A DNA stretch of 64,000 nt from Planifilum fulgidum. Its GTDB lineage: Bacteria > Bacillota > Bacilli > Thermoactinomycetales > DSM-44946. How positions within the stretch are numbered: the first letter of the stretch is position 1; every line of letters starts with the position of its first letter. The stretch is taken from assembly GCF_900113175.1 (NCBI RefSeq), contig NZ_FOOK01000007.1, positions 1 to 64,000 of the forward strand. Direction: 5' to 3'. A program made the translations under genes and the position numbers. The notes under the pieces are model-generated. The model was given only the letters and a program-made list of their open reading frames with translations, was not told where the DNA came from and made no database searches. Positions 29,045-64,000 of this stretch are shown here, in pieces.

Positions 29045-29301
29045 GGAAATGCGATGAAGAGGACATGAGCCGGTCCACCACGGTTGCCAGAGAGAGGGGT
29101 CATCGGCTGGAAGCCCCTTAACCCCCTGGGGATCGGTTTACCCCCTCGAAGCAGCGGCGGGGAACGCCCATCAGGGTGAGTATCCGCCGACGGGAACGCG
29201 CCGTTACCGCGAAGAGGATCCCGTCCGCCCTTTTGACAGGCGGGGTCGAAGAAGGGTGGAACCACGACGTCTGCGCTCGTCCCTTGGGTGCGGGCGTTTT
29301 T
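29045..29301 (+). promoter_or_regulatory. T-box leader of thrS
   Basis: The leader has the Stem I start GCGATGAAGAGGACA (29051-29065), an AGAGAG bulge region, and the T-box AAGGGTGGAACCACG (29252-29266), whose UGGA bulge pairs with the uncharged tRNA end. The competing terminator is CGTCTGCGC (29268-29276) with GTGCGGGCG (29288-29296) and a T-run. A threonine ACC specifier is expected; a candidate ACC lies in the CTTAACCCCC stretch near 29118, not proven by folding. Confidence 0.92.
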
Positions 29302-31857: not shown

Positions 31858-31968
31858 GTATCCAAGAAGAAGCGCCCCGCTTCTCACCTGATCGACGCAC
31901 GGGCTGTTGACAGGTTTCATCGCGGATGACTTCGATGTTGAGTGTGGGCGTGAGGTCCGCACTTTTTT
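31858..31968 (+). promoter_or_regulatory. infC leader with attenuator (L20-leader type)
   Basis: Between promoter and infC lies a leader ending in the hairpin AGTGTGGGC (31941-31949)/GTCCGCACT (31955-31963) and six T residues, 30 bases before infC. In Bacillus subtilis this operon is controlled by L20 binding to the leader and causing termination; the position and hairpin agree, although the L20-binding fold was not modelled. Confidence 0.7.
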
Positions 31969-31998
31969 GTTTTAATTCCCCCACGGAGGTGGCAGGTT

Positions 31999-36765: not shown

Positions 36766-37073
36766 GAGTTTCCACAGCCGTGGAAGGTGCGGGACATCGC
36801 CTGATGCAGGGGGCGGGACTTCTTGCGCTGAATTCCCGTCTTCAGCCACCGCTGTACGCCGGTTACCGGAGGCGTGTGTTCGTCCTGCCGCCTTCCGGAT
36901 ATCGGTATATTTTGAATATTGGTCCATATCAAGGGCCATCGGCTCATAAGGCTGAGACAACCGGGCGCTTCAAGTCGACGCTTTCCGCCGAGAATTTTTC
37001 CGGTAGTGACAGATGCGAATTTTTGTTATACACTGATGAACAATATCTCATGAATTTGCGGAGGGGAGAAAAC

Positions 37074-38744
37074 ATGCGCAGCGACCGGATCAAGAAAGGG
37101 ATCGATCGCGCGCCCCATCGCAGCCTTCTCAAGGCGACGGGCCTTAAGGACGAGGACTTTGACAAGCCCTTTATCGGCATCTGCAATTCCTTCGTGGAGA
37201 TCATTCCCGGGCACATCCACCTGCAGGAATTCGGGAAGCTGGTGAAGGAGGCCGTCCGCGAAGCGGGGGGCGTTCCCTTTGAGTTCAACACGATCGGCGT
37301 GGACGACGGGATCGCGATGGGCCACATCGGCATGCGCTACTCGCTGCCCAGCCGCGAGCTGATCGCCGATTCCCTGGAGACGGTGGTGCAGGCCCACTGG
37401 TTCGACGGGCTGATCTGCATTCCCAACTGCGACAAGATCACCCCGGGGATGATGATGGGGGCGATGCGGGTCAACATCCCGACGATCTTCATCAGCGGCG
37501 GTCCGATGGCTGCAGGCCGGATGCCGGACGGCCGCAAGGTCGATCTGTCTTCGGTGTTCGAAGGGGTGGGGGCCTACCATTCCGGAAAGATCGATGAGCG
37601 GGAGCTGAAGATGCTGGAGGACTTCGGCTGTCCCAGCTGCGGCTCCTGTTCGGGGATGTTCACCGCCAACTCCATGAACTGTCTGGCGGAGGCGTTGGGC
37701 TTGGCTCTGCCCGGAAACGGGAGCATCCTGGCCGGCACGAAGGAGCGGGAGGAGCTGGCCCGCCGGGCGGCGCGGCAGATCATGGCCCTGGTGGAAGCGG
37801 ACCTGAAGCCCAGGGACATTGTCACCCGGGAGGCCTTGGACAATGCCTTCATCCTGGACATGGCCATGGGCGGCTCCACCAACACGGTGCTGCACACCAT
37901 CGCCGTCGCCCACGAGGCGGGGGTGGAATATCCCCTGTCCCGCTTGAACGAGCTGGCCGAACGGGTTCCCCACCTGTGCAAGGTGAGCCCCGCCGGCCGG
38001 TGGCACATGGAGGATGTGCACCGGGCGGGGGGAATCAGCGCCATTTTGAAGGAGCTGAGCCGAATCGAAGGCCTGCTCCATCTGGATGCGAAAACGGTCA
38101 CCTTGAAGACCCTGGGTGAAAATATCGCGGATGCGGAAATCAAGGACGAAGAGGTGATCCGCCCCTTGGAGCGGGCCCACAGCCGGAGAGGAGGGCTTTC
38201 CATCCTGTTCGGGAATCTGGCGCCGGACGGAGCGGTCATCAAGACCGGTGCGGTGGACCCGTCGATCCGGGTGTTCCGGGGACCCGCCGTGGTTTTCGAT
38301 TCCCAGGATTCGGCCATCGCCGCCATCGCCCTGGGGAAGGTGAAGCCGGGCGATGTGGTGGTGATCCGCTACGAGGGGCCCAAAGGAGGGCCGGGCATGC
38401 CGGAAATGCTCTCGCCGACCTCCGCCATCGCCGGAATGGGACTGGACAAAGAGGTGGCGCTGATCACGGACGGCCGTTTCTCCGGGGCGACGCGGGGGAT
38501 CTGCATCGGCCACGTGTCTCCGGAGGCGGCTGAAGGGGGACCGATCGCCCTGATTGAGCCGGGGGACATGATCGAGATCGATCTTACGAACCGCCGCATC
38601 CATCTGGATGTTCCCGAGGAGGAATTGAAGCGGAGGCGGGCGGCCTGGACAGAGCCGGAGCCCAAGGTGAAGACCGGATACCTCAGGAGATACGCCCGGT
38701 TGGTCACCTCCGCCAGCACCGGCGCGGTCTTCCGGGAGATCTAG
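37074..38744 (+). CDS. ilvD: Dihydroxy-acid dehydratase
   Basis: IlvD (556 residues) dehydrates dihydroxy-acids to the 2-oxo acids of valine, isoleucine and leucine synthesis, using an iron-sulfur cluster and Mg. Cluster cysteines are visible in [15 protein letters not shown] and [19 protein letters not shown], and the C-terminal [15 protein letters not shown] and [11 protein letters not shown] are typical. ATG 37074 follows GGAGGGGAG. It is separate from the ilvB operon, lying upstream of that operon's promoter. No obvious own promoter or leader was identified in the 300 bases upstream. Confidence 0.97.
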
Positions 38745-38872: not shown

Positions 38873-38902
38873 TTGACAAAGATGAATTTGCCTGATTATA
38901 AT
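38873..38902 (+). promoter_or_regulatory. Promoter of the ilvB operon
   Basis: Consensus TTGACA (38873-38878) and TATAAT (38897-38902) with an 18-base spacer; the transcript should start near 38909 and have a leader of about 560 bases. Confidence 0.9.
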
Positions 38903-38949
38903 AACACCTAAATAATCGAACAGGTAAAGCAAATCAAATAACGGAGAAT

Positions 38950-39077
38950 GGTTGGAAGGGTGCCTAGGGTTCCGCCCGCCTGCGTTTGCGGGGTCTGCGA
39001 CCGAGCGGCACCAGCATTCCGGCGGCATGCCGGGATGTACACCGTGAGGATAAAAGCCTCTGCGGCAGGTTCTGACC
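38950..39077 (+). promoter_or_regulatory. ykkC-class riboswitch, probably ppGpp-sensing (subtype 2a)
   Basis: The conserved elements of ykkC RNAs occur in order: GTGCCTAGGGTTCCG (38960-38974), GACCGAGCGGCACC around 38998-39012, and TACACCGTGAGGATAAAAGCC (38038 bases later in pattern, here 39038-39058), followed by GCGGCAGGTT. The closing stem is GGTTGGAA (38950-38957) with TTCTGACC (39070-39077). Of the ykkC ligands (guanidine, ppGpp, PRPP and others) ppGpp is best supported, because subtype 2a is known from branched-chain amino-acid operons; the ligand is inferred from context only. Confidence 0.85.
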
Positions 39078-39130
39078 TGAAGCATTACGGGACAGGTTGG
39101 CGCTTGCGAGCAGGGGTTTGTTGTTATTTA
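39055..39130 (+). terminator. Riboswitch-controlled terminator
   Basis: AGCCTCTGC (39055-39063), part of the aptamer core, can pair instead with GCAGGGGTT (39110-39118), which leads into a T-rich tail. The two folds exclude each other, so ligand binding should prevent termination. Confidence 0.65.
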
Positions 39131-39144
39131 AAAACTGAATCGGT

Positions 39145-39443
39145 TTAAAGCGATGAAGAGGACAACAAGCGATCCGTCACCGTGTCACAGAGAGTTCCGG
39201 ATAGGTGAGACCGGAATCACGGCCGGACCGCTTTCTCCCCTCGGAGCTGGACGCCGAAAGGCGGCGCATGCCGCGCGAGTAGGCCGTCTCCGGTTGTCGC
39301 CGTTATCCGACGGGGTGCGATCCCTTCGCACCCGCAGAGGCCGACTCCCGCGAGGGAGCGGCGAAATTGGGTGGTACCGCGAACCTTTCGCCCCAATCGA
39401 GGCAATATTTGTGACTCGTGTGGGGTGAAAGGTTTTCTTTTTT
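39145..39443 (+). promoter_or_regulatory. T-box leader of ilvB
   Basis: A complete T-box: Stem I start GCGATGAAGAGGAC (from 39150), the CAGAGAG loop, T-box GGGTGGTACCGCG (39369-39381), and the terminator AACCTTTCGCCCC (39382-39394)/GGGGTGAAAGGTT (39422-39434) with a long T-run. The specifier may be the ATC (Ile) near 39214, by comparison with other leaders, but was not checked by folding. Confidence 0.92.
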
Positions 39444-39471
39444 CAATATCACTGAAGGAGGTTCGATCAAG

Positions 39472-42793
<3,322 letters not shown>

Positions 42794-42812: not shown

Positions 42813-44375
42813 ATGCGGACCGTAGAGATCTTTGATACCACGCTGCGGGACGGCGAGCAGTCGCCGGGAGTCAATCTGAGCACGTCGGAAAAGGTGGAAA
42901 TCGCTCTCCAGCTGGAGAAGCTGGGGGTGAACTCCATCGAAGCCGGCTTTGCCGCCTCCTCGCCGGGGGATTTCCAATCGGTCCGGGCGGTGGCGAAGAA
43001 AGTGAAACGGGCGACGGTGGTCAGCCTGTCCCGGTCCGTGGAAAAGGACATCGATGCGTCCTGGGAGGCGCTGAAGGAAGCGGAATCCCCCTGCATCCAC
43101 ATCTTTTTGGCCACTTCTCCGATCCACCGGAAATATAAGCTCCGCATGAGCAAGGAAGAGGTCCTGGAGACGCTCGATCGGGCCATCCGATATGCCAGGC
43201 GGTTTTTCCCCAAGGTGGAGTTTTCCGCCGAAGACGCGGGGCGGACGGAGATCGATTACCTCTGCCAGGTGGCGGAACGGGCCATCGCAGCCGGGGCGGA
43301 CGTGTTGAACTTCCCCGACACGGTGGGTTATCTGACGCCGGAGGAGTATGCCGACATCTTCATCCAACTGCGCCGGCGGGTTCCCGGCATTGAAAAGGTC
43401 AAACTGAGCGCCCACTGCCACAACGATCTCGGCATGGCCGTGGCCAACACCCTCGCCGCCATCCAGGCGGGGGTGGATCAGGTGGAGGGAACGATCAACG
43501 GGATCGGCGAAAGGGCCGGAAACGCCGCCATCGAAGAAGTGGCCATGGCGCTGAAGACCCGCGAATCCTACTACCAGGCCGCCACCACCCTCAATCACCG
43601 GGAGATCGCCCGCACCAGCCGCTTGGTGAGCAAGCTGACCGGGATGTTTGTCCCCGGCAACAAGGCGATCGTCGGGGCCAACGCCTTCGCCCATGAATCG
43701 GGGATTCACCAGGACGGCATCCTCAAGCATCAGTCCACCTACGAAATCATCCGTCCGGAGACGGTCGGCTTCGAGAAAAGCCGGCTGGTGCTGGGCAAAC
43801 ATTCGGGACGGCACGCCTTCCGGGATCATCTGAGCGCTTTGGGTTACCGTCTCACCGACGAACAGATCAACCAGCTTTTCGTCCGCTTCAAGGAGATGGC
43901 GGACCGGAAAAAAGAGATCACCGATCAGGACCTGATCGCCCTCGTGGAGGAAAAGTGGGGGGAACCGAAGACGGAAGTGTACGCGCTGGAGTGGGTGCAG
44001 CTCTCCTACGGCAATCAGTCGGTTCCCACCGCGTCGGTCCGGCTGCGCAATGCCCGGACCGGTGAGATTCTGGAAGAGGCGGCCTGCGGCAACGGCTCCC
44101 TCGACGCCATCTTCAAGGCGATCGATCGCATCACCGGTGAAGAGGTGGAATTGGTCGATTGCAAAATCGTGTCCGTCACGCGGGGCAAGGACGCCCTCGG
44201 CGAGGTGTATGTACAGCTGAATCAGAAGGAGCTCACCGTTCAGGGACGGGGCGTGAGCACGGATATTCTCGAAGCGAGCGCGCGGGCTTATATCGACGGA
44301 ATCAACCGGTTGATCCAGTGTCGGGGGGAGAAGCCTTCCGAAGAGAAAGAGACGATGGGTGTTTCGATGGGATAG
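42813..44375 (+). CDS. leuA: 2-isopropylmalate synthase
   Basis: The 520-residue enzyme condenses acetyl-CoA with 2-oxoisovalerate, the committed step to leucine. It has the DRE-TIM signature FDTTLRDGEQSPGVNL, the metal-binding HCHNDLGMAVANTLAA, and GANAFAHESGIHQDGILKH, then a C-terminal leucine-sensing regulatory domain from about residue 390. It starts at ATG 42813 behind GGGAGGGTG. A structured 140-base spacer separates it from leuB. Confidence 0.97.
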   Translation: MRTVEIFDTTLRDGEQSPGVNLSTSEKVEIALQLEKLGVNSIEAGFAASSPGDFQSVRAVAKKVKRATVVSLSRSVEKDIDASWEALKEAESPCIHIFLATSPIHRKYKLRMSKEEVLETLDRAIRYARRFFPKVEFSAEDAGRTEIDYLCQVAERAIAAGADVLNFPDTVGYLTPEEYADIFIQLRRRVPGIEKVKLSAHCHNDLGMAVANTLAAIQAGVDQVEGTINGIGERAGNAAIEEVAMALKTRESYYQAATTLNHREIARTSRLVSKLTGMFVPGNKAIVGANAFAHESGIHQDGILKHQSTYEIIRPETVGFEKSRLVLGKHSGRHAFRDHLSALGYRLTDEQINQLFVRFKEMADRKKEITDQDLIALVEEKWGEPKTEVYALEWVQLSYGNQSVPTASVRLRNARTGEILEEAACGNGSLDAIFKAIDRITGEEVELVDCKIVSVTRGKDALGEVYVQLNQKELTVQGRGVSTDILEASARAYIDGINRLIQCRGEKPSEEKETMGVSMG

Positions 44376-44516: not shown

Positions 44517-45635
44517 ATGGTCAAGAAAATTGCCGTTCTCCCGGGGGACGGGATCGGACCGGAAATCGTCGATGAAGGCGTCAAGATCCTCCGGGTGGTG
44601 GCGGAGACCTTCGGTTATCGCTTTTCGTTCCGGTTTGGCATGGTGGGAGGCGGAGCGATCGACCGGGTGGGGAATCCCCTCCCGCAGGAAACCTTGGATT
44701 TGTGCCGCGATTCGGATGCGGTGCTCCTGGGGGCGGTGGGCGGACCCCGGTGGGACGACAACCCGCCCGAGCTGCGCCCGGAAAAGGCGCTGCTGAGATT
44801 GCGGAAGGAACTGGGACTGTACGCCAACTTGCGGCCGGCCATGCTGTTTGAGGGCATGGAGGAAAGTTCGACCCTCCGCCCGGAGGTGCTCCGGGGCGTG
44901 GATCTGATCGTCGTCCGGGAGCTGACCGGCGGCATTTACTTCGGGGAAAAGCGCCGGGAACGGTCGGAGGAGGGCGAAAAGGCGACGGACACCTTGGTGT
45001 ATCACGAGTGGGAGATCGAGCGGATCGCCCGGCGTGCCTTTGACATCGCCCGCGGCCGGCGGAAACGGGTCACCTCCGTCGACAAGGCCAACGTATTGGA
45101 AAGCTCCCGCCTCTGGCGTTCCGTCGTCAACCGGGTGGCTGAGGATTACCCCGACGTGGAGCTGGAACACATGCTGGTGGACAATTGCGCGATGCAGGTG
45201 GTCCGAAAGCCCGCCCATTTCGACGTGATCGTCACCGAGAACATGTTCGGGGATATTTTGAGCGATGAAACGGCCATTCTGACCGGCTCCATCGGGATGC
45301 TTCCCTCCGCCAGCCTCGGCGACGGTTCCTTCGGCCTGTACGAACCGGTCCACGGTTCCGCCCCGGATATCGCCGGTCAAGGCGTGGCCAATCCCGTTGC
45401 CACCATCCTGTCCGTGGCGATGATGCTTCGCCACTCCTTCGGGTACGAAGAGGCCGCGCGGGCCGTCGAACAGGCGGTGCGCTCCGTGCTGGCCGCCGGT
45501 TACCGGACGGCGGATTTGGCCCCGTCGGGCGATCTGGCCATCGGCACCGAGGAGTTCGGTGACCGGGTGGCCGAGGCGATCCGACGCCACGAGCCGTCTT
45601 CCTCGACGACGGTGCCGCTGGAGATCGTGTTGTAA
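44517..45635 (+). CDS. leuB: 3-isopropylmalate dehydrogenase
   Basis: LeuB (372 residues) oxidatively decarboxylates 3-isopropylmalate with NAD. It shows [15 protein letters not shown], the substrate-binding Arg/Tyr strip ([16 protein letters not shown]), [10 protein letters not shown] and [10 protein letters not shown] with [24 protein letters not shown] precedes ATG 44517. It is the last gene before a strong terminator; the isopropylmalate isomerase genes leuC and leuD, which separate or follow leuB in many relatives, are not in this operon or window. Confidence 0.97.
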
Positions 45636-63830: not shown

Positions 63831-63850
63831 ATATATCAAATTTTACGGCC

Positions 63851-64000
63851 AGGCGATGAAGGAGAGGAGTAGGCCGCACGCCCCCACAGGGAGGAGATGT
63901 CGCGACTGAGAGCATCTCCGGGGAAACGGCGGTTCGAAGTTCGCTCCGGAGCTGTCTCCTGAAAGGATTTTCCGAGTAGGGAGCACCGGGTTCGCCCGTT
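63851..64000 (+). promoter_or_regulatory. T-box leader, probably of pheST (truncated by window end)
   Basis: GGCGATGAAGGAGAGGAGTAGG (start of Stem I, 63852-63873), the region with GAGAGCATCTCCGG, and a TTC (Phe) triplet in the CGGTTCGAAGTTCGC part fit the first half of a phenylalanine T-box. The T-box sequence and terminator are beyond the window. Position after the SpoU gene matches pheST in Bacillus. Confidence 0.75.

Follow-up and report, generated by a model that had tools for sequence, protein, structure and literature searches.

The ilvB leader of Planifilum fulgidum consists of two serial attenuators, a predicted ppGpp riboswitch of ykkC subtype 2a and a leucine T-box, which with a probability of close to 90% act together as an AND gate on branched-chain amino acid biosynthesis. 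The anatomy of the leader, the subtype signature of its aptamer, the specifier codon of its T-box, and the conservation of the whole arrangement are observed features of the DNA. The leader belongs to a known and well-supported kind of tandem and is no new device, and it offers a clean, conserved example of a natural two-input RNA gate in which a global alarm signal is combined with a specific amino acid shortage.

Architecture and conservation of the ilvB leader

The leader lies within the window, the 64,000-nucleotide stretch of contig NZ_FOOK01000007.1 that was analyzed, between ilvD (open frame 36780-38744) and ilvB, which begins with a GTG codon at 39472 shortly after AAGGAGG (Table 1). 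The start of ilvC lies well inside its open frame, since the KARI domains occupy only part of it. A search with the IlvB protein gave mainly matches from Paenibacillus (at most 68% identical) and from other Bacilli, with the host genus not among them. A single promoter with a complete consensus match precedes both RNA elements, as an earlier note made from the sequence had claimed, and every one of the 17 orthologous leaders has a promoter with the same 12/12 match ahead of its aptamer (spacer of 18 in 16 of them). A promoter scan of the 17 leaders found matches of at most 8/12 between the ykkC and T-box elements, and these weak promoter-like matches vary in place from one leader to another. 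The promoter is a perfect sigma-70 consensus, unusually strong and fixed, and lies in front of two attenuators.

Table 1. Features of the ilvB leader and operon (window coordinates)
Feature	Position	Strand	Basis
Promoter TTGACA-18-TATAAT	38873-38902	+	12/12 consensus match
ykkC subtype 2a aptamer (predicted ppGpp)	38953-39074	+	RF00442, ppGpp-set model, covariation
Aptamer P0	38953-38957/39070-39074	+	covariation
Aptamer P1	38959-38964/39007-39012	+	covariation
Conserved CTAGGGTTCCG of aptamer	38964-38974	+	
G48-C49 equivalents	39005-39006	+	sequence, comparison set, PMC6031431
C75 A76 C77 C78 equivalents (CACC), ligand-contact residues	39040-39043	+	sequence, PMC6031431
Position-96 equivalent (U)	39061	+	alignment; register from PMC6031431 primer
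Terminator 1 (predicted)	39054-39129	+	folding; equivalent stem in 17/17 leaders
T-box leader, leucine type	39144-39398	+	RF00230, E 2.6e-18
Specifier codon CUC (Leu)	39235-39237	+	calibrated register; 17/17 leaders
UGGU bulge of antiterminator, pairs with tRNA acceptor end	39372-39375	+	within RF00230 match
Terminator 2 (predicted)	39381-39445	+	15-bp stem 39381-39395/39421-39435, then U run
ilvB, acetolactate synthase large subunit	39472-41208	+	Pfam TPP_enzyme N/M/C
ilvN, small subunit	41205-41696	+	Pfam ALS_ss_C, ACT
Open frame with ilvC	41195-42793	+	KARI domains at aa 210-521
leuA	42813-44375	+	Pfam HMGL-like, LeuA_dimer
leuB	44517-45635	+	Pfam Iso_dh

A covariance-model search, suggested in the earlier note, recovered both elements when an E-value cutoff was applied. 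The ykkC/Guanidine-I model RF00442 matched 38953-39066 (53.4 bits, E 1.6e-8), and the T-box model RF00230 matched the T-box with 83.0 bits. A default Rfam scan misses both elements because these scores lie under the curated gathering scores (63 for RF00442 and 93 for RF00230); the matches were accepted because their E-values are low in a search of 901 bases and because the elements are conserved. Across the genome, Rfam models gave 17 T-box and 3 ykkC matches. A weak Hammerhead_II match inside ilvB (39552-39595, E 2.6) was dismissed as chance.

The complete set of promoter, ykkC 2a RNA, terminator 1, CUC T-box, and ilvB is found in 17 of the 42 genomes of the order. These comprise 3/3 genomes of the family to which P. 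fulgidum belongs and 10/10, 3/3, and 1/2 in three further families. The ppGpp element precedes the T-box in every one of the 17 leaders.

The upstream aptamer and its ligand class

The residues and model scores assign the upstream element to ykkC subtype 2a and make it a predicted ppGpp riboswitch, the probable type named in the earlier note. Pyrimidines at position 49 mark subtype 2, whereas guanidine-I RNAs carry A, and G96 in PRPP RNAs is replaced by a non-G residue in ppGpp RNAs (PMC6031431). The leader has C at position 49 (39006, within CCGAGCG) and U at position 96 (39061), with the register of the latter set by the G96A mutagenic primer printed in PMC6031431. For comparison, ykkC RNAs were gathered from the taxonomic order (42 genomes) and from a sample of the phylum (299 genomes) and sorted by downstream gene, with SMR efflux genes taken as guanidine, purine genes or permeases as PRPP, and ilvE or natA as ppGpp. 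Position 96 was G in all purine-linked RNAs examined, and position 49 of the SMR-linked RNAs was mostly A, with G in a few.

Models built from these sets (20 ppGpp, 13 PRPP, and 18 guanidine RNAs) scored the leader at 95.6, 71.0, and 31.6 bits, respectively, with the ppGpp set containing neither ilvB-linked members nor RNAs from the leader's own genus; since that set comes from the leader's own order and the PRPP set from the whole phylum, the ppGpp score is inflated and its margin reflects kinship in part. The residue at position 96, unlike the score margin, does not reflect kinship. Aligned with one another, the 17 aptamers linked to ilvB gave the ykkC fold including P0, with pair-preserving changes on both sides in 9 of 36 pairs. 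Covariation was found in P0, P1, and the second hairpin; in P0, one pair had changed on both sides and the remaining pairs on one. P0 joins the two ends of the aptamer, is absent from guanidine-I RNAs, and is special to subtype 2.

The other two ykkC ligands that might be considered, PRPP and guanidine, were rejected on residues and model scores. If the aptamer were a PRPP riboswitch (subtype 2b), the operon would be gated by PRPP and uncharged tRNA-Leu; nearly all of the consensus is common to subtypes 2a and 2b, and the PRPP-set model still gives the leader 71.0 bits. That reading is very unlikely given the absence of the class-typical G at position 96, the lead of 24.6 bits for the ppGpp-set model, and the ends of the aptamer (GGAAGGGUG at the 5' end and GCGGCAGGUUCUGA at the 3' end), which resemble those of ilvE-linked RNAs and not the GAAAGUG...GGUAGGUUUC of the PRPP set. 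Guanidine is suggested by the Rfam model name and by a 2025 survey of tandems (PMC12452182) that calls T-box/ykkC tandems at ilv genes "guanidine," Guanidine-I being the best and only Rfam ykkC match; because this is the only Rfam ykkC model that matches the leader, the match itself gives no ligand. A guanidine-I aptamer here is hardly credible when position 49 is C and not A, the contact residues read CACC and not CACGG, P0 is present, the guanidine-set model gives the lowest of the three scores, and the operon downstream is for branched-chain biosynthesis. Nelson et al., as reported in PMC7266159, saw no guanidine binding by such RNAs.

Terminator 1

The earlier note also placed a terminator in competition with the aptamer, and such a stem was recovered here by folding. 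It consists of 10 bp between AAGCCUCUGC (39054-39063) and GCAGGGGUUU (39110-39119), wraps an inner hairpin, has a predicted energy of about -34 kcal/mol, and is followed by GTTGTTATTT, a U-rich tail. Its 5' strand belongs to the conserved 3' half of the aptamer, so that the two structures would compete. Folding of 38935-39126 gave -83.4 kcal/mol for the terminator state and -62.8 kcal/mol for the aptamer state, energies that describe secondary structure alone and do not include ligand, tertiary contacts, or kinetics. In ppGpp riboswitches the ligand stabilizes P1 and blocks the terminator (PMC10687018), and the layout of terminator 1 matches theirs.

An equivalent stem is present in all 17 leaders, with 7 to 13 contiguous pairs that use the same aptamer strand and end in a T-rich tract, and it is kept while the loops vary. 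Shuffles equal the stem length in 0 to 16 of 200 cases for single leaders, so the weight of this evidence rests on conservation. With an interrupted U tract (TTTGTTGTTATTT) and an equally long stem in 1/200 shuffles of the flank, the strength of terminator 1 is, from P. fulgidum alone, only predicted. A simple terminator scan of the leader found no terminator; it misses both terminators because their stems enclose long inner hairpins, and they are revealed by folding and comparison.

The leucine T-box and terminator 2

The second element is a full T-box with its own terminator, again as first described, with the T-box sequence GGGUGGUACCGCG at 39369-39381 and a predicted energy of -34.6 kcal/mol for the terminator region (39366-39446). 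The isoleucine specificity originally proposed for it was wrong. The specifier register, which was read by eye, was calibrated on the T-boxes of aminoacyl-tRNA synthetase genes and proC in the same genome, giving UAC for tyrS, GUC for valS, CUC for leuS, AUC for ileS, AUG for metS, GCC for alaS, CCC for proS, and GGC for glycyl-tRNA synthetase. In this register the specifier of the ilvB leader is CUC, not the AUC of ileS, and it is CUC in all 17 orthologous leaders, where the next base is A, G, or C. Judged by its sequence, the ilvB T-box is of the leucine type, and a tRNA-Leu(GAG) gene is present in the genome. The specifier loop (39231-39242) lacks the GAA-codon form typical of most synthetase T-boxes in this genome and reads UUUCUCC on its 3' side; in this genus the codon is followed by C and not by a purine.

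Predicted two-input logic

The proposed mechanism has the consensus promoter transcribing ilvB-ilvN-ilvC-leuA-leuB through two independent attenuators. Binding of ppGpp would stabilize the aptamer, so that terminator 1 could not recruit AAGCCUCUGC and the polymerase would continue. Uncharged tRNA-Leu(GAG), read through the CUC specifier and the UGGU bulge, would then allow the antiterminator to form and terminator 2 to be avoided. Since both attenuators must be passed, full expression is proposed to need ppGpp together with uncharged tRNA-Leu; by analogy with the published tandems, the operon probably turns on only when the two signals coincide, and the gate would separate leucine starvation from general starvation. 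Ligand binding, the ON direction, and termination are likewise predicted from the published class. The anatomy is that of a tandem AND gate, with both elements, a separate terminator for each, and no strong promoter between them, and it bears out as a prediction the two-input arrangement before ilvB that the earlier note had put forward. The genome encodes a RelA/SpoT homologue and CodY, and control may therefore also involve a transcription factor.

Without an AND gate, the T-box would be left as the sole effective control, through either a second promoter or weakness of terminator 1, and the ppGpp element would do no more than adjust the level of expression. Such an arrangement would fit the imperfect U tract after terminator 1 and an 8/12 promoter-like match between the switches that could bypass the first of them. 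It is unlikely in view of the retention of terminator 1 in 17/17 leaders despite their varied loops and of internal promoter-like matches that are weak and at no conserved place. In this lineage, aptamer, terminator 1, and T-box might also form a single co-evolved unit, not independent of one another, behind a maximal-consensus promoter, with nearly all branched-chain control residing in RNA and with the order of ppGpp before tRNA being of consequence. In such a unit the ppGpp-first order might, for example, hold the polymerase until Stem I is out; the reading as a whole is distinctly unlikely. The AND gate of two serial attenuators remains the preferred reading.

Relationship to known tandem riboswitches

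Tandems of a ppGpp riboswitch and a T-box(Leu) with separate terminators are natural AND gates according to Sherlock et al. (2018, PNAS), as cited in PMC5912903, PMC6031431, and PMC9481103. These publications mostly answer the question, left open in the earlier note, of whether such a combination had been described. The elements occur in either order (PMC5912903, PMC6031431), and Table 2 of a 2022 survey (PMC9481103) counts 15 tandems with ppGpp before T-box(Leu) and 16 in the reverse order; host species of the listed tandems are not given in the survey's text. For the published tandems, too, the AND logic has the standing of a prediction. The P. fulgidum leader is like them in its elements, their order, the separate terminators, the leucine T-box, and the predicted ON inputs, and it differs from them in nothing of principle. 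With ykkC subtype 2a it shares the core, P0, the pyrimidine at position 49, the non-G residue at position 96, a terminator that would seize the 3' strand of the aptamer, and a branched-chain operon downstream, and ppGpp binding is predicted on this likeness. CUC, the antiterminator bulge, an intrinsic terminator, and the ilv-leu genes are common to this leader and the T-box(Leu) of ilv-leu operons such as Bacillus subtilis ilvBNC-leuABCD (PMC12452182), with the difference that the T-box here is preceded by a second switch.

T-box plus "guanidine" tandems account for 24% of the tandem-controlled ilvB cases in Bacillota in PMC12452182, where Table 2 applies this label to ykkC RNAs in ilv/leu tandems and guanidine toxicity is discussed. 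Because one Rfam model catches all ykkC subtypes, the RNAs so labeled at ilv genes are, to judge from sequence features, probably ppGpp RNAs. The leader leaves knowledge of the class unchanged, and the 17 orthologous leaders from four families are well suited to putting the predicted AND behavior to the test.

Other RNA elements

Of the three ykkC RNAs in the genome, one lies before ilvB, one before ilvE, and one before a natA-type ABC transporter gene, all of them published contexts for subtype 2a. The ilvE-linked RNA (L009 1501-1606; G000:C8:98700-98805) and the natA-linked RNA (L010 1501-1605; G000:C11:25687-25791) are both subtype 2a-like, and in both a terminator pairs with the AAAAGCC of the aptamer. 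A divergent ykkC RNA in a related genome (L171 2901-3004, minus strand; G009:C2:247540-247643) lies before a HAD-family hydrolase gene, scores low with all three models, and is probably of subtype 2c (nucleoside diphosphates).

Within the window, a T-box at 29045-29287 (70.9 bits) precedes an open frame resembling threonyl-tRNA synthetase. Another at 63847-64000, cut by the end of the window (the T-box continues to 64080 of the contig), has the specifier UUC (Phe) by register. A ribosomal protein L20 leader at 31858-31974 scores slightly above its Rfam gathering score.
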